This document shows, piece after piece, positions 1-7,063 of a DNA stretch of 7,258 nt. Both the position numbers and the translations under genes were made by a program. The DNA lies in contig CAAEDZ010000314.1 of the NCBI GenBank assembly GCA_900754775.1, positions 1 to 7,258 on the forward strand. The letters are read 5' to 3'. The first letter of the stretch is position 1, and each line of letters begins with the position of its first letter. Under the pieces are notes generated by a model. It had not been told where the DNA came from. It did no database searches and saw only the letters and a program-made list of their open reading frames with translations. This DNA is from Clostridia bacterium (GTDB lineage Bacteria > Bacillota_A > Clostridia > Christensenellales > Aristaeellaceae).

Positions 1-1399
1 CCGCGAAGGGCGGCGGGCCGTCCAGCAGGAGAAGCGCGTCGGAAAGCGGCTGCTCCACCAGCGCCGCGTCCTCCATGCCAAGCGCGTCCCGGAGCAGGGC
101 GCAGAGGGCGGCGGGACGGCCGTCCAGCGGATAGGAGAGGTCAAGGGTACAGCCCGCATCCTCGGGCCGGCGGTCCAGCTCGTCGGCCCAGGCCGTGAGC
201 AGGCCGGGAAGGCGCGGCCACAGGCCGGGATGCCCGGCGTCCGCCAGCTTCCGCAGCGTCGCCGCGGCGCGCGCGCGCCAGCCCGCGTCGTGCTGTTCCA
301 GCAGGGCGAGCTCCCGTTTCAGGCGCGCCAGCGCGTCCGCTTCGCCGGGGCTGCGCGCGGGCTCGGCCAGACAGAAGGCGGACCGGCGGGCAAAGGCCGT
401 GCCGTCCAGCGAATACAGGACGCAGCCGCCGCCCTCCGCGGCGGGAGGCACGGGGCCCAGCGCCACGCGAAGAAGCGGGTTGGCGGCGGGGTCGGCCTCC
501 TGCGGATGCAGCGTTTCTTCCCGGACCCCGGCGGGCGTGTCCGCCAGCGTATGGGCGGCCAGAATCCGGGTGCGGAGATCGTCGAGCGCCTGTGCGTCGC
601 CCCGCGAAAGCAGGTCGCGCCACGCGTCGCGCGCGCGGGAGATGTCCGTAAGAAACGGGCGCAGCACGCCGCACAGGCCCGCCGCGGGGTCGTAGAGGGG
701 GCTGCGCAGCGAGGGCTGCTCGTTCAGGCGGCACAGAAGCGCAAGCCGCGCGGTCAGGAACGCGGCGTCGCGCTCGCAAAGGCATGCGCAGGGGTCGAGG
801 AAACGGCGCTGCGCGCGGTCATACCACGTCACGCAGGGCGGCAGCAGGGGACTCAGGTCGCCGGGGTCGGCGGCGGGCACCACGGCCATGGCGCGGGAGA
901 GAAGGGCGACGGGCCGCGCGGGGATGCCCTCGCCGCACAGCGTAAACGCCCACAGCCCGTCCGGGGCGCGGGCGGGGGAGAGCGCGGCGGTCACCGAGGC
1001 GGAGAAGGCCGTGCCGCCGTCCGAGAGGCGTACCAGCTCCAAGGCGGGCCACGCGCCGTCCTGCGGCCAGGTATCCCACAGAAGCAGCAGGGCCAGCACC
1101 GCGCGCCAGGCCGCCATTGAGGGATGGGCCAGGGCGCGCTCCGGCGTCAGGCGCGAAAGGCGGCGCAGCTGCTGCTCGGCGCTGAGCACGTCGGGGATGG
1201 AATAGCTCACGTCGATGCCCGGCGTTTGCAGGTAGCGGGCCAGGCTTTCCAGCCATTCGCGCGGGCGCCGGTTGTGGTCGCTCACGATGCCGGGCGCGGT
1301 GTGGTAGCCCGTATGAAAGCCCTCGTCCATCGGGGGCAGAAAGGTCAGGTAGGCGGTCTGGCGGTCCAGCGCCTGCTTTTCTTCACGGTTGCCGCGCAC
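1..1399 (-). CDS. Large protein of unknown family, partial (3' end outside window)
   Basis: I do not recognise this family. The frame is open from GTG 1399 to the left edge, giving 466 visible codons with no stop. The GTG is chosen because a near-perfect AAGGAGG lies 8 nt upstream; the first in-frame ATG (1330) has no ribosome binding site. The translation has normal composition, whereas the other frames here give Arg/Ala/Pro/Gly-rich shadows. No signal peptide or membrane helix is evident, so it is probably cytoplasmic; the Leu-rich run at residues 101-108 is short and flanked by Trp. Residues 148-175 (DGLWAFTLCGEGIPARPVAL, then a segment ending AVVPAADPG) and TWYDRAQRRFLDP (191-203) look like strand-forming, constrained segments. 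Residues 352-387 are helical and charged and could form a coiled coil. It starts 21 nt after the tubulin-like gene, so it is very likely translated from the same mRNA and works with it. The size and C-terminal domains cannot be judged here. Confidence 0.85.
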   Translation of the reverse strand, partial: MRGNREEKQALDRQTAYLTFLPPMDEGFHTGYHTAPGIVSDHNRRPREWLESLARYLQTPGIDVSYSIPDVLSAEQQLRRLSRLTPERALAHPSMAAWRAVLALLLLWDTWPQDGAWPALELVRLSDGGTAFSASVTAALSPARAPDGLWAFTLCGEGIPARPVALLSRAMAVVPAADPGDLSPLLPPCVTWYDRAQRRFLDPCACLCERDAAFLTARLALLCRLNEQPSLRSPLYDPAAGLCGVLRPFLTDISRARDAWRDLLSRGDAQALDDLRTRILAAHTLADTPAGVREETLHPQEADPAANPLLRVALGPVPPAAEGGGCVLYSLDGTAFARRSAFCLAEPARSPGEADALARLKRELALLEQHDAGWRARAAATLRKLADAGHPGLWPRLPGLLTAWADELDRRPEDAGCTLDLSYPLDGRPAALCALLRDALGMEDAALVEQPLSDALLLLDGPPPFA

Positions 1400-1405
1400 G
1401 GCGCG

Positions 1406-1414
1406 TCCCTCCTT
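1406..1414 (-). promoter_or_regulatory. Ribosome binding site deciding the GTG start at 1399
   Basis: The minus strand reads AAGGAGGGA, complementary to the 3' end of 16S rRNA. The AGGAGG core (1413-1408) is 8 nt from GTG 1399. It lies in the 21-nt gap after the TGA of the tubulin-like gene. This site is the main reason for assigning a GTG start to the left gene. Confidence 0.8.
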
Positions 1415-1420
1415 CCACGG

Positions 1421-3013
1421 TCAAAGGTCCTCCATCACGGCGGCCAGCAGCGTGTCCATGAAGGCGGCCAGCGCCTCGTCCGGGCTGCCTGCGCGCACGC
1501 CGCCGCCCAGCGCGCTCACCACGCGCGCCATGTCGCGCCGGTCGGGCACGGGGGACAGGACCAGCCGCTCCAGCCCGCGCTGCACCTGACGGCAGGCCGC
1601 CTCATCCGGCGTGCCGCTTCCGAGGGAAACCAGCGCCGCGTGCAGCGCGTCCAGCGCGGCGGCGTCCATCAGGCCGTTTTCCTCCCCTTCTGCGGGCAGG
1701 CGGAAGGCGGGCGGCAGCGTGTGGAGCACCTGATGCATCCAGTTGATATAGAAGGCGAAAAAGCGGTACACCCCGTCCAGCCGCGCGCCCAGCCGGGCGC
1801 GTGCGGAGGCGGGATAGCTGCGGCGGAAGAACGCGGCGAGGTAGCCCACCCGCCCCAGCGAACGCCGCCCGTCGCACAGGAAGGCGCGCAGCGCGGGGTA
1901 GCATTCGGTCACGTAGACGGCGGCGGCCTTCATCATGGCGCCGTAGCGCGCGCGGTAGAGGGCCGCGTCGGTGTCGAAGCTGTCCCAGCAGAAATGCGGG
2001 GTGTGCCACTGATAGTAGTAGCAGTCCATGTTGTGCGCCTGATCGCCCCGGAAGCCCGTTGAGAAAAACCGCGCGGCGCAGCGCGCCGCCAGCCATTCCA
2101 GCATGTGCGCGTCGTTTTCCTGGCTCTGCGAGCCGGTGGAATACAGCCGCGCGGATACGAAGTGCTCCGGCGGCAGGCCCAGCAGGTAGGCCGCGTCAAA
2201 GATGCCGGAGGCGTCCTCCGCGCCGTTTCTGACCATGCCCTCCATGCCGTAGTATTGCAGCGCCGTGCGCGCCTTGTCCAGAAACTCGTCGCTGGAGACG
2301 GCGATTTCGCGCTCCGTGTCCACGTCGGCGGGGGGGACGCGGTAATAGGGCAGCATCAGCACCGCGCCCATCACAAATCGGTCCGTATCCCCGGCGAAGC
2401 GATGGCGCAGGTACCTGCTGACGGCGGGGATGCCGCTGGCGCCCGTGCCGCCGAAGATGCTGCCGGTCAGAAGCACCTGAACCGTCTCGCCCCGGTCCAG
2501 ATCGGCCCGCATGCGGTCCACCATGGCGTTGAGCTCGTCGGGCTGGCCCTGGGCGCGCATGTCCTCCAGCGCGCCCAGCAGATCGGCAAAGAACAATACG
2601 CCCAGATCGGGGTGCCCGCGGAAGCCCTCGCTGTATTCCAGATCGGCCTCGGCGCGGGTGAACAGCGTGCGGGCCAGCAGCCCGTCCAGCGCGTGGCGCG
2701 CGGCCATCTGGCGGACGGAGGCGGCGCGGCGGCTGAGATTCATGCTCCACCGGCTGATGGACAGGCGCGTATGGAAGCAGGGGTGGTCATAGGGCGAGGC
2801 CGCCAGCGCGGCGCGGGCCTCCTCGTAGGCCTCGGCGGCGCGCTTTAAGCGCGTGGTGTTGCCGCAGGAGGCGTCCACATCCACCGAGAGCAGGTCCAGA
2901 GCGGGCAGCGGACCTTCGCCGGGCGTGGAAAAAGCGTCCGCGCACGCGGCGTAGACGATGGCTTCCAGCACCTTGCTGCCCGTTCCGCCCACGGCGATCA
3001 CATACCGGCCCAT
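1421..3013 (-). CDS. Tubulin/FtsZ-like GTPase-domain protein (tubulin-like family)
   Basis: This 530-residue protein looks like a divergent tubulin/FtsZ-superfamily member. The N-terminus is a Rossmann-type strand and glycine loop, MGRYVIAVGGTGSKVLEAI, with GGTGSK at residues 9-14. A second strand ends LLSVDVDAS (41-49), whose Asp residues may contact the nucleotide. The key signature is LLTGSIFGGTGASGIP (181-196): GGTGAS at 188-193 matches the tubulin signature loop GGGTG(S/T)G that binds nucleotide phosphates. Residues 298-310 (QENDAHMLEWLAA) could be the T7-like region supplying the acidic residue for hydrolysis; that assignment is tentative. The rest to 530 is helical and unlike FtsZ. The start at ATG 3013 has AAAGGAGG 7 nt upstream. 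The frame stays open upstream to 3730, but that extension is out-of-frame reading of the membrane-protein and lipoprotein genes. No membrane segment is seen, so it is cytoplasmic. Family knowledge predicts GTP binding and filament formation; neither is shown here. It is not FtsZ itself, since length, C-terminus and context differ. Confidence 0.82.
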   Translation of the reverse strand: MGRYVIAVGGTGSKVLEAIVYAACADAFSTPGEGPLPALDLLSVDVDASCGNTTRLKRAAEAYEEARAALAASPYDHPCFHTRLSISRWSMNLSRRAASVRQMAARHALDGLLARTLFTRAEADLEYSEGFRGHPDLGVLFFADLLGALEDMRAQGQPDELNAMVDRMRADLDRGETVQVLLTGSIFGGTGASGIPAVSRYLRHRFAGDTDRFVMGAVLMLPYYRVPPADVDTEREIAVSSDEFLDKARTALQYYGMEGMVRNGAEDASGIFDAAYLLGLPPEHFVSARLYSTGSQSQENDAHMLEWLAARCAARFFSTGFRGDQAHNMDCYYYQWHTPHFCWDSFDTDAALYRARYGAMMKAAAVYVTECYPALRAFLCDGRRSLGRVGYLAAFFRRSYPASARARLGARLDGVYRFFAFYINWMHQVLHTLPPAFRLPAEGEENGLMDAAALDALHAALVSLGSGTPDEAACRQVQRGLERLVLSPVPDRRDMARVVSALGGGVRAGSPDEALAAFMDTLLAAVMEDL

Positions 3014-3033
3014 GCGCAGGCCTCCTTTCCTGA

Positions 3034-3657
3034 TTACAGCCGCTTGAAAAAGGCGTGGCGGCCGCTGATGGCGGGCGGCGCGGCCAGACGCGACACGGCG
3101 GCGGCGGCCAGCACGTTGAGCGCGTAGCAGCCGAAATACGCCGCCAGATCCCACCCGGTGCGGCCGGGAATCCACCTGACGCCCGCCAGCCAGACCACAG
3201 CGGCAAAGGCCGCGTTGACCGCGCAGAGCCACAGGAGCGTCAGGCGGTAGGTACGGATGGCCCGGCGGGCCGCCCGCGCGGGCTGGATGGCGGAGCGCCG
3301 CCCGGCGCGCCAGAGAAGCTGCACCGCCAGCGTAATCAGCCACGCCGCGAGCGCGCAGGCCGCCAGAAACCAGAGCCAGCTTTGCTCGCGGGAGAAAAGC
3401 GCGGCGCGCAGGGCCTCGGGCGTTGCGGCGGCGGCTTCGCCCGACCGGGCCGGCGCGTCCAGCGGCGCGAGGGAAAAGGGCAGAGCCGCTTGCAGATGCA
3501 GCGCCACGTTGGGCGCGGTGCCCGTCAGCTTGAGGGGGTAGATCCAGAGGCTGGCCGCGGCCTGCCACAGAAGCGGCAGGGCAAAGCAGACCAGATAGCA
3601 CATCAGGCATTTCACCCGGTTGGACCAGCGCAGGCGCACGGCGGACGGCATGCTCAT
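3034..3657 (-). CDS. Four-helix integral membrane protein of unknown function
   Basis: This 207-residue protein has four hydrophobic segments at roughly residues 17-39, 93-116, 138-160 and 169-188. Arg-rich stretches lie at the N-terminus (RLRWSNR) and between helices 2 and 3 (residues 117-138). By the positive-inside rule both termini would face the cytoplasm, with a ~50-residue loop (40-92) outside. I do not recognise a family and see no catalytic motif. ATG 3657 is preferred: it overlaps the lipoprotein stop as ATGA, a classic translational-coupling arrangement, and GGAAGG lies 6 nt upstream. ATG 3651 is a possible alternative, and ATG 3672 lies upstream of the purine-rich site. It ends 20 nt before the tubulin-like gene. 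The coupling to a lipoprotein on one side and a cytoplasmic tubulin-like protein on the other suggests a bridge or membrane receptor; that role is inference. Confidence 0.85.
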   Translation of the reverse strand: MSMPSAVRLRWSNRVKCLMCYLVCFALPLLWQAAASLWIYPLKLTGTAPNVALHLQAALPFSLAPLDAPARSGEAAAATPEALRAALFSREQSWLWFLAACALAAWLITLAVQLLWRAGRRSAIQPARAARRAIRTYRLTLLWLCAVNAAFAAVVWLAGVRWIPGRTGWDLAAYFGCYALNVLAAAAVSRLAAPPAISGRHAFFKRL

Positions 3658-5684
3658 ACGCCCCCTTCCCATGCCCCGGCGGGCACGAATACGTCAAACT
3701 CATAGCGCACCAGAGGCGCTTCATCCACATTGGCGGCCGCGCGGAGCTGCGCGATCAGCTCCTCAAGGCCCGGCGCGCGCATCACGGGCGGGAAGTCCGG
3801 GATGGGCAGGCCGTGATAGCCGGATTCGTTCACGGGTCCCCACGCGTGCTGAAGCTGGCGGGGCACGCCGGTGCTGTCGCCGTCATAGGTATGCACCGCC
3901 TCGGCGAACTGCTCCCACGCGGAAATCTGCTCGTTGGTCAGGCGCACGCCGAGGCTGGCGGCCCAGGGGACGTCCTCCCATTCGACCTGCGCGCCGGAGA
4001 GGTCCGCGCTGACCAGCACGCGGTAATAGCCCGGCACGAGCGCGGCTTCGTCCGCCGAGACGGTGATGGAAAGGCGCGTGCCGCCATCCTCCGGCGTCAC
4101 GGCGGAAAGCGTGAAGGGGCTTTGCCGCCCGCCGCTCCGGAAGGCCTCGTCCTCGCGGGTAAAGACGTACTGCGTATCCCGAAGCGCGATGACCTGCCCC
4201 TCCCCGGCCTGCGCCGTGGTGGGCAGCGTATCGGTCAGAATGAGCGCCGCCTCCACCGAGACGGAGGCGGTGAGGCCGCTCAGGTCCGCGCTCGCCGCGC
4301 CGCTTTCCTGCGTCACGGGCAGCGACACCGTCACCGACGCGCCGGAGGAATCGCTATCCAGCGTGACCGTGGCGGCCTGCCCGCCGGTTTCGAGCGTGCA
4401 GCCGGATACGGACAGCGCCGCGCCCTCGCTAAGCCGGGTCAGGCAGGTCCAGCCGGGCCGCTCGATGCGCACGGAGAAAGATTCAAAGCCGAAGGGCTGC
4501 TGCGTGACGGTCCGGCCGTCCGCGGTATAGGTGAGCTGGCCCTCCTGAGGGCCGCGCAGGCCCTTGAGCGCCTCGGAGGCCGCCAGCCCTTCGTCCAGCA
4601 GCGCGGTGTAGCGGTCCACCTGCGCGGGCGTTCCCACCACCAGCATGATAAGCGTGCGCGGCATGGGCAGCGCCTGATCGGAGTTCTGAGCGGCGTTGTC
4701 GTAATCCAGCCGGCCCCAGAGAAGCGGCTCGGCAAAGTCCGCCGCGCCGAAGGAGGACATCTGCCCCATATAGTCCAGCACAAAGGCGTAGAGCTGAACA
4801 CACAGCCCCGCGTCAAACACGCCCCGCGCTTCAAGCACCTCCGTCACAAAATCAACGGGCGTGCCGTCCGCCTCCACGGTGGACAGGCGGCGCAGGGTGG
4901 CCGGGTCGCAGGTGATGACGGACAGGCGCGTGAGGTCGAGGTTTTCCAAGGCGTACATGAGCGGCGCGTCCGCGTCGCCGTCCGCCACGTAGCCGTCCGT
5001 CTCCCCGCTCCGGATGGCGGCGATCTGGTCATCCAGAGCGTCGGCCATGGCCGGGGCCAGCGACGGGTTTTCCAGCGAGGAGGCGTCCAGCGCGCGCAGC
5101 CGGTTGAGCATGGGCGTGCCCAGGTCGTAGAACGAGCCTTCCATGTCCTCGGCGGACAGGCCCGCAAAGAACGAGGGCAGGGGGGTGACGGCACAGGTGA
5201 GCAGGTCGCGCGTGACGGAGGCGCGCGCCTCCGCGCCGGACCCGGCCAGCGCCTGAAGCGCCTCGTCCGGCAGGCGCTCGTTGCCCGCGCGCAGCACCCG
5301 CACGCGCGAGCCCTCGGCCGCGGCCAGCAGGCAGCGCAGCACGCCCTCGTACATGCCCACCTGCGAGCCGTAGCGGTAATGGAAGCCGCCCTCGCGGTAC
5401 TTGCGGCTGAAATGGGGATAGACGCTCTCCTCGTGGATGTTGATGCCGCCCATCACCTGGGAGGCGTCCAGCCACAGGTCCACCAGCAGGGGCGCGCCGG
5501 ACGCGGGAGCCTCCGTTTCGTCGGGGACGGCGTCGCTCATCGCGGGCCATTCCAGCAGGCGCAGGTCCGGCGCGGCAGATGCGCTGTCCGCGCCGGAAAA
5601 GGCGTCCAGCGCGCCGGGCAGGCCGCACGCCGTGAGCAGCAGAGCGGCGCACAAAAGCAGCGCCAGCAGCATCCGCCGGACCAT
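3654..5684 (-). CDS. Large lipoprotein with vWA-like N-terminal region and beta-rich C-terminal half
   Basis: This 676-residue protein starts with a type II signal peptide: VRR, a Leu/Ala core, then lipobox LTAC with Cys20 as the lipidated residue. It would be exported and anchored to the outer face of the membrane. An Ala/Ser/Asp/Glu linker leads to LLVDLWLDASQVMGG (66-80), which resembles the first strand and metal-site loop of a von Willebrand A domain (D73, S75), although the usual second serine of DxSxS is replaced. Further strands are RVRVLRAGN (127-135) and LSVITCDPA (254-262), the latter resembling the vWA strand ending in Asp. RTLIMLVVGTPAQVDRY (343-359) is another alpha/beta element. 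Residues ~380-580 are Thr/Ser/Val-rich with alternating patterns and probably form Ig-like beta domains. ATG 5684 is chosen because AAAGGAG is 8 nt away; ATG 5690 is only 2 nt from it and adds two residues. It may be a sensor or scaffold for the downstream membrane and tubulin-like proteins. The vWA call is moderate; lipoprotein status is strong. Confidence 0.85.
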   Translation of the reverse strand: MVRRMLLALLLCAALLLTACGLPGALDAFSGADSASAAPDLRLLEWPAMSDAVPDETEAPASGAPLLVDLWLDASQVMGGINIHEESVYPHFSRKYREGGFHYRYGSQVGMYEGVLRCLLAAAEGSRVRVLRAGNERLPDEALQALAGSGAEARASVTRDLLTCAVTPLPSFFAGLSAEDMEGSFYDLGTPMLNRLRALDASSLENPSLAPAMADALDDQIAAIRSGETDGYVADGDADAPLMYALENLDLTRLSVITCDPATLRRLSTVEADGTPVDFVTEVLEARGVFDAGLCVQLYAFVLDYMGQMSSFGAADFAEPLLWGRLDYDNAAQNSDQALPMPRTLIMLVVGTPAQVDRYTALLDEGLAASEALKGLRGPQEGQLTYTADGRTVTQQPFGFESFSVRIERPGWTCLTRLSEGAALSVSGCTLETGGQAATVTLDSDSSGASVTVSLPVTQESGAASADLSGLTASVSVEAALILTDTLPTTAQAGEGQVIALRDTQYVFTREDEAFRSGGRQSPFTLSAVTPEDGGTRLSITVSADEAALVPGYYRVLVSADLSGAQVEWEDVPWAASLGVRLTNEQISAWEQFAEAVHTYDGDSTGVPRQLQHAWGPVNESGYHGLPIPDFPPVMRAPGLEELIAQLRAAANVDEAPLVRYEFDVFVPAGAWEGGV

Positions 5685-5692
5685 GCGCATCT

Positions 5693-5722: not shown

Positions 5723-7063
5723 TCATTCGCCCCCGGCCGGGGCTTTCCCTGCCGCCTTCTCCAGCGCCGCCTGCCAGGCGGGGCTGTGGCGGTACATGTT
5801 TTCATAGAGCTTGAGATAGGCGGAAAAGCACTTGCCCGCCTCAAAATCGGCGGCGCGGGCGCGGCAGGCGTCGGCGCTGCGGGGGGCGGCGCACAGGCGG
5901 CGCACCGCGTCGGCCAGGGCGGCGATATCGTCCAGGGGCACGACCTCGCCCACCTCGTCGGTCACGATTTCGGGCATGGCGGTCGCGTCGTAGCACACGA
6001 CCTGCGTGCCGCAGGCCAGGGCCTCCACCAGCGTCATGCCCATGCTTTCCTCGTGGCTGGCGCTGAGGTACACGTCGGCGGCGGTGTAGAGGGCGCACAG
6101 ATCCGCCGTGTTGCCCGTGCGCTTCACCCCCAGCACCGTGTTTTTGGGCAGCGAGGCGATCTGGTATTCGTCCAGACCCACGGCCACCACGCAATACTCC
6201 GGCCCCAGCGCCTCGCTCAGATCAATCAGGTCGTCCAGCCCCTTGCGCTCGTCCCACACGGCCGCGGCGCTGAGCACCAGGCGGCGGCCTCCCGACCGCT
6301 CCAGCCCGTAGAAGCGCACCACGTCGCGCATGAACTGCTCGTCCGAGCAGGGCTGAAAAACGGTCAGGTCCACGCCGTTGGGCAGGGCATAGACGGGATA
6401 GCCGCTGAGAAAGGAGCGCTTGACCTCCTCGCGCAGCCACTCGCTGGGGGTGGTGAGCACCATGTGCCTGAGGCCGCAGAACAGCTCCCGCTTGTCGCGC
6501 CAGTTGCGCGCGCTCTGGTCCAGAAACCAGCTGGACGGATAGGCATGCCGCCGGACGCATCTCCCGCAGCCCCCAAGCCAGCGGTCGCAGCCGAGGCGGT
6601 CCTCCCGGCCGGCCCGGCGGCGGCGGCCGTCCACCGGCTCCGCGCCGCGCGCCATGGTGTAGTAGGCGCAGTGGCCGGTGTAGGCCCAGCAGTCATGCAG
6701 GGTCCACACCACGGGAAGGTCGTGCTTCCTGAGCCAGGCAAAGAGCATGGGGAGATTGAGGTAATACCCGTGCAGGTTGTGCAGGTGCACGAGGTCGGGC
6801 TTGTACGCATCCAGCTGGCGGATGAGCCGGCGGGTGGCGTAGCGGCTGAAAAAGCCCGCGCGGTCGGTAAGCCGGGTCAGGGCCAGGTCCAGCAGCGTTT
6901 CCGCCTTGCTGCCGATGACATAGCTGGGCACGTCGGCGGGCGCGTGATCGCGCGAATGGCAGATGAGGGCGCGGTGACCGGCCTGCATGGCCGTGCGGCA
7001 CAGGGAAACCGCGATGCGCCCCGTGCTCAGCGAGGCGACGACATTGATCTGGGCGATGCGCAT
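5723..7063 (-). CDS. GT4-family glycosyltransferase (GT-B fold)
   Basis: This 446-residue protein is a retaining-type glycosyltransferase of the GT4 ('group 1') family. It is expected to transfer a sugar from a nucleotide-sugar donor to a glycan or glycolipid at the cytoplasmic face of the membrane. The N-terminal acceptor domain begins MRIAQINVVASLSTGRIA and contains DLVHLHNLHGYY (90-101) and VVWTLHDCWAYTGHC (118-132), typical of enzymes making surface polysaccharides (WcaC-like). The C-terminal donor domain has LPNGVDLTVF (227-236), the basic phosphate-contacting DERKG (271-275) and the EX7E motif with E339 and E347, followed by EALACGTQVV. Five cysteines (C125, C132, C159, C166, C169) surround an Arg-rich stretch GRRRRAGREDR (146-156), which appears to be an insertion compared with relatives as I remember them. 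No signal peptide is present. ATG 7063 has AAAGGAG 7 nt upstream. It is the first gene after the promoter and terminator region. The donor, acceptor and product cannot be read from sequence. Confidence 0.92.
   Translation of the reverse strand: MRIAQINVVASLSTGRIAVSLCRTAMQAGHRALICHSRDHAPADVPSYVIGSKAETLLDLALTRLTDRAGFFSRYATRRLIRQLDAYKPDLVHLHNLHGYYLNLPMLFAWLRKHDLPVVWTLHDCWAYTGHCAYYTMARGAEPVDGRRRRAGREDRLGCDRWLGGCGRCVRRHAYPSSWFLDQSARNWRDKRELFCGLRHMVLTTPSEWLREEVKRSFLSGYPVYALPNGVDLTVFQPCSDEQFMRDVVRFYGLERSGGRRLVLSAAAVWDERKGLDDLIDLSEALGPEYCVVAVGLDEYQIASLPKNTVLGVKRTGNTADLCALYTAADVYLSASHEESMGMTLVEALACGTQVVCYDATAMPEIVTDEVGEVVPLDDIAALADAVRRLCAAPRSADACRARAADFEAGKCFSAYLKLYENMYRHSPAWQAALEKAAGKAPAGGE

Follow-up and report, generated by a model that had tools for sequence, protein, structure and literature searches.

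The stretch of DNA analyzed here, hereafter the window, comprises 7,258 nucleotides of contig CAAEDZ010000314.1 from a Clostridia bacterium and carries an operon in which a tubulin-like GTPase is encoded next to a large protein with a predicted actin fold. Open reading frame (ORF) analysis places four genes on the minus strand in the order LIPO, 4TM, TUB and BIG. LIPO (3654-5684) encodes an exported lipoprotein of 676 amino acids (aa) from an ATG at 5684, or of 678 aa from an alternative ATG at 5690. It is followed by 4TM (3034-3657), a small polytopic membrane protein of 207 aa, and by TUB (1421-3013), a tubulin-like GTPase of 530 aa and a divergent relative of the Tubulin_2 family. BIG (1-1399) is the 5' part of the large partner, with 466 aa visible before the gene runs off the window edge. 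The tight packing described in the initial annotation is borne out by the ORF coordinates: 4TM starts within the stop of LIPO, giving a 4-nt overlap (3654-3657), and gaps of 20 nt (3014-3033) and 21 nt (1400-1420) separate 4TM from TUB and TUB from BIG. Ribosome-binding sites of the AAGGAGG type are present 5' of both TUB and BIG. The nearest genome in the collection has 27% of the window's words in common, and its BIG is complete at 1186 aa with a convergent gene after it. TUB is 55-94% identical to 18 near relatives (94% in a record titled Candidatus Limiplasma pullicola) and LIPO is 42-91% identical to 16, all in the same gene order as the window. Because TUB, LIPO and the gene order are conserved, the coding is real, and a chance origin of these reading frames in GC-rich DNA was rejected.

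The tubulin-like identity proposed for TUB in the initial annotation is supported at the level of sequence profiles, both by Pfam and by a chain of comparisons through the long FtsZl1 proteins, making TUB a probable member of the FtsZ/tubulin superfamily. Against PF13809 (Tubulin_2), the window protein scores 26.5 bits (E = 4.7e-6), just below the 27-bit cut-off, while its counterpart in the nearest genome scores 27.8 bits. At E<=0.01, PF13809 is matched by 49/49 aligned members and PF00091 (Tubulin/FtsZ GTPase) by 24/49. Two motifs stand out in the alignment. The T1-type glycine loop GGTG (residues 9-12, minus strand 2978-2989) has G9, G10 and G12 invariant in all 49 members. In the T4-type tubulin signature GSIFGGTGASG (residues 184-194, minus strand 2432-2464), residues 184-192 are invariant in the same 49, partly by construction, since the distant loci were found with the pattern GS[IL]FGGTGA; variants occur at loci L056 (GSLCGGTGS) and L058 (GSVFGGTGA). 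In profile comparisons, TUB is linked to the domain of the long FtsZl1 proteins (E 7.5e-7, probability 92%), which is linked in turn to FtsZ (E 4e-6, probability 87%); three control pairs stay at <=0.2%, and the long FtsZl1 set has 11 rows from 8 genomes. Sequence searches of the PDB returned only a malate dehydrogenase match for TUB alone (E 0.39) and no match for the TUB profile. Members of the family range from about 480 to 710 aa, and the relatives of about 700 aa have a long insertion that the window copy lacks. Neither TUB nor the visible 466 aa of BIG has an export signal or, in a hydropathy scan, a hydrophobic segment.

Turning to BIG, the initial annotation had described the large partner as unrecognised, a description that no longer holds now that an actin-fold ATPase domain has been recognised at its C-terminus. 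The domain lies outside the window and was examined in a complete orthologue of 1186 aa (L062:11615-15175) by AlphaFold2 and fold comparison, in which its assignment as an actin-fold ATPase is well supported. In the nucleotide-binding loops, residues D669, G671, E857, D881 and G883 are invariant in 56/56 sequences, and an N-terminal part of about 655 residues accompanies the domain. Foldseek gives top rank to Hsp70 nucleotide-binding domains, a result that would suit BIG being an Hsp70-like chaperone or signalling ATPase and TUB a non-polymerising GTPase switch, the complex then serving to fold, deliver or regulate envelope proteins. One BIG homologue is annotated as a molecular chaperone, and L138 has an Hsp70 gene beside the module (Pfam HSP70, E 1e-83), L135 a similar gene. 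The VIA comparison, however, places MreB/MamK (Z 22.4) above DnaK (Z 20.8), a difference of under 2 Z units. In addition, the L062 protein extends only about 90 residues past its ATPase domain, a length that seems insufficient for the substrate domain of an Hsp70, and of four BIG proteins and a fused one, none matches Pfam HSP70. A chaperone complex of this kind appears improbable, even if Makarova and Koonin, in the sections of their article consulted, allow a non-filament FtsZl1 as possible though less likely (PMC2875224). BIG also differs from MreB and MamK, to which it is 12-15% identical, in that its actin fold is only one part of a protein about 1000-1260 aa long. As a separate observation, four cyanobacterial loci (L089, L091, L097 and L104) encode a second, shorter BIG paralogue without the N-terminal parts, a few genes downstream.

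The association of TUB with BIG extends well beyond the window. A TUB-alignment scan of genome_contigs using the peptide pattern above confirmed 210 loci, of which the best 80 were used, so that divergent relatives are under-sampled. These loci were picked by TUB only, counts over them were made on six-frame translations, and the BIG and LIPO profiles were iterated over the same 80. Among the 18 near-clade loci, LIPO, TUB and BIG are found in 18/18 with the order unchanged, as is 4TM (15 by a first gene calling and 3 by a second), and the operon occurs in 15/17 genomes of the window's genus. The neighbourhood test proposed in the initial annotation has a favorable outcome across the 80 loci, with BIG downstream of TUB in 76/80 loci and the vWA-like gene, LIPO, within 1.5 kb of TUB in 64/80. 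Where more than 3.5 kb of downstream sequence is available, BIG is found in 69/69; the four loci without it are three contig ends (L074, L122 and L126) and L125, which offers 2,498 bp and no match. LIPO reaches 55/66 where more than 2.5 kb lies upstream, is farther off in four more loci, and was not found in twelve of the 80. Applied to 60 distant loci (L082-L141), the near-clade profiles detect BIG in 54 and LIPO in just four (L082, L084, L086 and L136), so the presence of LIPO in other distant loci rests on the iterated profile.

By record title, the 80 loci include 36 from cyanobacteria, 30 of Bacillota type, 3 from Poribacteria, 3 of Acidobacteria type, 2 from Spirochaetes, 2 from Bacteroidota, and one each from Aminicenantes, Chloroflexi, Nitrospirae and Ignavibacteria. 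The module is thus found in several phyla and is not specific to Clostridia, the class in which the initial annotation had proposed to survey it. Among 248 sampled genomes of the window's order, TUB is present in 8, each with BIG (on separate contigs in G093). BIG matches 21 of the same genomes, of which eleven are real, and the three beyond the TUB set form a genus with a fused gene; the other ten matches are short, and their frames of 250-427 aa resemble ordinary genes of MreB/FtsA type. TUB and the actin-fold BIG are nearly always encoded together and sometimes as one polypeptide. In L107, L117 and L123, a single open frame of about 1650 aa contains TUB followed by BIG. In the further genus, BIG is fused to about 640 residues (L227:6877-12057, L228:5112-10433 and L229:8301-13535) that have no direct match to the TUB profile. 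As profile comparison nevertheless matches this part to TUB (E 2.3e-10, probability 97%), it may be read as a tubulin domain that has degenerated, which would suggest that those proteins can do without GTP binding.

A link between FtsZ-superfamily and vWA proteins was part of the initial annotation and is already in the literature. In the sections of Makarova and Koonin 2010 used here (PMC2875224), operons of FtsZl1 and vWA genes are predicted to be membrane-remodelling systems, and FtsZl1 is defined by an N-terminal FtsZ-like domain, a long coiled coil and a helical C-terminal domain. The same sections name GTPases, kinases and OmpA-type proteins as FtsZl1 partners. Points of resemblance are the glycine loops in a GTPase domain of the tubulin superfamily, an operon partner that is a vWA protein (vWA-like in the window; signal peptides occur in some of the published ones), additional membrane proteins of unknown kind and, in some lineages, OmpA-type genes. 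Those sections do not mention an actin-fold partner, although the article's unnamed families A1-A2 and B1-B9 may include BIG, and its FtsZl1 list may include TUB-type genes. On another reading, the window would be a plain FtsZl1-vWA operon as understood in 2010, with the actin-fold protein an incidental, lineage-specific neighbor. The published linkage and the TUB match to PF13809 are in keeping with such a reading, yet BIG accompanies TUB in 76/80 loci and is fused to it in separate lineages. Moreover, the two gene types can be told apart. TUB is about 480-710 aa in length and has the actin-fold partner, whereas the six long FtsZl1 genes compared have frames of 847-1197 aa and are not matched by the TUB profiles. 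A Tubulin_2 survey yielded ten loci, including six that have long genes; nine are without TUB, BIG or LIPO matches, and the tenth (L164) is the same TUB-BIG module. A PF13809 search of 25 genomes finds a long frame of 912-1140 aa (E 2.3e-63 or better) in 8/18 of the cyanobacterial ones, and since those eight also carry a TUB of about 500 aa, the two types coexist. An incidental neighbor is very improbable. The published FtsZ-vWA link stands, while TUB itself is, on sequence comparison, a branch separate from the long FtsZl1 genes. Taken together, the TUB-BIG module is a real, widespread and apparently undescribed variant of the predicted FtsZl1-vWA systems. Searches of the open-access literature, which leaves out most subscription journals, turned up no article about TUB and BIG as a pair.

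Shorter Tubulin_2 matches at three further loci came to light alongside these comparisons. L163 (G386:C194) has two adjacent short Tubulin_2 frames of 496 and 556 aa, neither of which matches a TUB or BIG profile, and the pair is perhaps another short Tubulin_2 type. A protein of about 445 aa at L165:8613-9950 has a weak Tubulin_2 match in a neighborhood that, in our reading, looks mobile or conjugative. At L166:8784-9968, a lone 394-aa protein adjoining what we read as a thioredoxin-reductase-like gene appears to have a GxGQGGxN-type glycine loop at the site of its weak Tubulin_2 match.

The remaining two proteins of the operon would place the module at the cell envelope. TUB and BIG share their operon with the gene for a small polytopic membrane protein. 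Most loci also encode a vWA-like protein, and many members of its family are lipoproteins. The initial annotation had given the membrane protein four helices; its polytopic nature stands, and in the window copy three of the four proposed helices exceed the threshold of a simple hydropathy scan, leaving the fourth unproven there. Across the 60 distant loci examined, 30 small genes lie directly upstream of TUB, with 4 segments in 19, 3 in 9, 2 in 1 and 5 in 1. LIPO has a signal segment and a lipobox (LLLTAC, Cys20, codon 5625-5627), and a lipobox-like motif is present within the first 50 residues in 33/51 members, some starts being miscalled. It is divided into an N-terminal vWA-like part (residues ~60-370) and a C-terminal beta-sandwich (~410-670). 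The alignment and motif listing place a degenerate MIDAS-like motif, DASQV, at residues 73-77 (minus strand 5454-5468), where distant relatives have DGSGS, DGTPS or DATxS. The intact MIDAS pattern DxSxS occurs in 7/51 rows (six cyanobacterial and one from Aminicenantes) and Dx[ST]xS in 19 more, eight of the 51 starting too late to judge. In the window and the 16 near rows, CD or VD stands where others have TD or similar.

FtsA and FtsZ are encoded by adjacent genes and provide an actin-fold and a tubulin-superfamily NTPase that act at the membrane. The TUB-BIG module resembles them in the adjacency of its two NTPase genes and differs in the large N-terminal part of BIG, the fusions in some lineages and the linked 4TM and LIPO genes; the nearest genome also has a separate, ordinary FtsZ-type gene. 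Tubulin- and actin-family proteins are rarely known to work as a dedicated pair, FtsZ-FtsA being the known bacterial case. Computation gives good support to the pairing of TUB with BIG and to the actin fold, and from here we infer how the module may assemble, how its parts may be coupled and what purpose it may serve. On the simplest reading, the TUB GTPase and the BIG ATPase would assemble together at the cytoplasmic face, like FtsZ and FtsA. The 4TM protein would anchor this assembly and connect it to LIPO, whose vWA-like domain may bind an envelope ligand. This would couple NTP-driven assembly inside the cell to an external element with a sensing or adhesive function, and could allow the envelope to be organised or remodelled locally. 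That the operon is a membrane-spanning machine driven by two cytoskeletal-type NTPases seems to us an evenly balanced proposition. Somewhat more tentative is the fuller proposal of an unrecognised multi-phylum tubulin-actin apparatus, in which an obligate TUB-BIG pair acts via 4TM on a lipid-anchored vWA-like element outside the cell. If this is true, bacteria would have, in addition to FtsZ-FtsA, a second pair built from tubulin and actin homologues, one with a transmembrane output of its own. The 2010 prediction of FtsZ-like membrane remodelling would gain a candidate mechanism of two NTPases inside and one vWA-like element outside. A multi-phylum operon with fused NTPases in some lineages would also offer a compact, testable system for tubulin-actin cooperation, and since cyanobacteria carry the module, it could be studied in culturable hosts.

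Several observations weigh against the membrane-spanning machine. The predicted structures cover only BIG, from L062, and LIPO, and an actin fold alone is no sign of polymerisation since Hsp70 has the same fold. A direct profile comparison of TUB with 30 Bacillota FtsZ sequences is not significant (E 0.16), and PF13809 at E<=0.001 has no TUB match in 5/25 genomes whose loci hold TUB. Seven loci have no detected LIPO although their upstream sequence is long enough to hold it (L085, L088, L098, L101, L116, L120 and L134). The vWA character of LIPO is also in question: Pfam vWA has no match in the 51 members, the pattern Dx[ST]xS is found in 0/17 of the window and 16 near rows, which have DASQV-type motifs instead, and the fold search with the LIPO model (pLDDT 88.7) returned weak beta-sandwich matches and no vWA structure. 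Because the C-terminal beta-sandwich filled the match lists, the vWA-like part was left without a structure match, and the search neither favors nor counters a vWA fold. As we read the model, strands and helices up to residue 370 follow one another as in a vWA domain, profile comparison with vWA gives E 8e-4 at a probability of 25%, and a PDB search with the LIPO profile gives one match (E 0.004) with an uninformative entry name. Of the lipid-anchored vWA-like protein first proposed, the lipobox and the MIDAS-type motifs of relatives are retained, and a match to vWA in Pfam or among structures is not. Lastly, the accessory genes of certain lineages are more suggestive of a conflict system.

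Such a system, anti-phage or programmed-death and of the NTP-dependent type in Kaur et al. 2020, would respond to a disturbance of the envelope or of the external vWA-like element: TUB and the actin-fold part of BIG would then assemble and trigger an effector. The relevant sections of that article (PMC7159879) describe GTPase-centric conflict systems with tubulin or HSP70 themes. Their GAP1-N2 systems combine tubulin and vWA proteins, one of them extracellular, with HSP70-type partners in a separate theme. Two cyanobacterial loci (L101:11982-18911 and L108:11686-19743) have extra genes between TUB and BIG and an extended BIG N-terminus. In L108, a Phormidium record, these genes encode an iSTAND protein (E 1.6e-14), MoxR-like AAA ATPases and a CoxE-type vWA protein (E 6e-11), and the extension is about 270 aa. 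A caspase (Peptidase_C14) domain replaces the usual BIG N-terminus in two cyanobacterial proteins (P0196 and P0216) among 120 listed BIG homologues of 385 found. Genes resembling ZorA and ZorB (OmpA/MotB-type) lie as pairs downstream in 5/80 loci, in Poribacteria, Nitrospirae and Acidobacteria records (L124:16181-19058, L131:16724-19576, L140:17077-19844, L090:13636-16588 and L095 from 15957). The profiles behind these and the Hsp70 counts were seeded from some of the same loci, and PADLOC was applied to the L124 pair only. The ZorA match in L124 is mostly in a coiled-coil tail, L115 has a ZorA-like gene alone, and L093 a weak ZorB-like match.

These effector-like additions are, however, a minority among the contexts examined, and in the window's genus the operon largely keeps its place, with variable effectors not evident. 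PADLOC has no match for the five window proteins, for TUB and BIG of L124, for LIPO of L136 or for BIG of L108, and ZorA/ZorB motor genes are likewise missing among the window proteins. A defence system known to PADLOC was rejected on the zero matches for the window proteins. Pfam gives no DO-GTPase or GAP1 match for those five, for four BIG proteins or for a fused one, its coverage of these families being unchecked. According to the same sections of Kaur et al. (PMC7159879), the GTPase-centric systems are also nearly absent from cyanobacteria, a group that supplies 36/80 of the TUB loci, and the actin-fold domain of the TUB-BIG module is in a near-constant partner. The conserved place in the genus favors a housekeeping envelope role, and the minority contexts leave room for a conflict role, which we regard as unlikely overall, if less so than the chaperone complex.

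Upstream of LIPO, the window encodes a GT4-family glycosyltransferase of 446 aa on the minus strand (5723-7063; Pfam PF00534, E 5e-20). The gene is directly upstream of LIPO in 15/15 same-genus loci and absent there in L039 and L046, which belong to another genus; in L048, with no sequence upstream of LIPO, it is not assessable. One further upstream neighbor is common to 11/15 of the same-genus loci. The glycosyltransferase is possibly a fifth gene of the operon, in the window's genus only.

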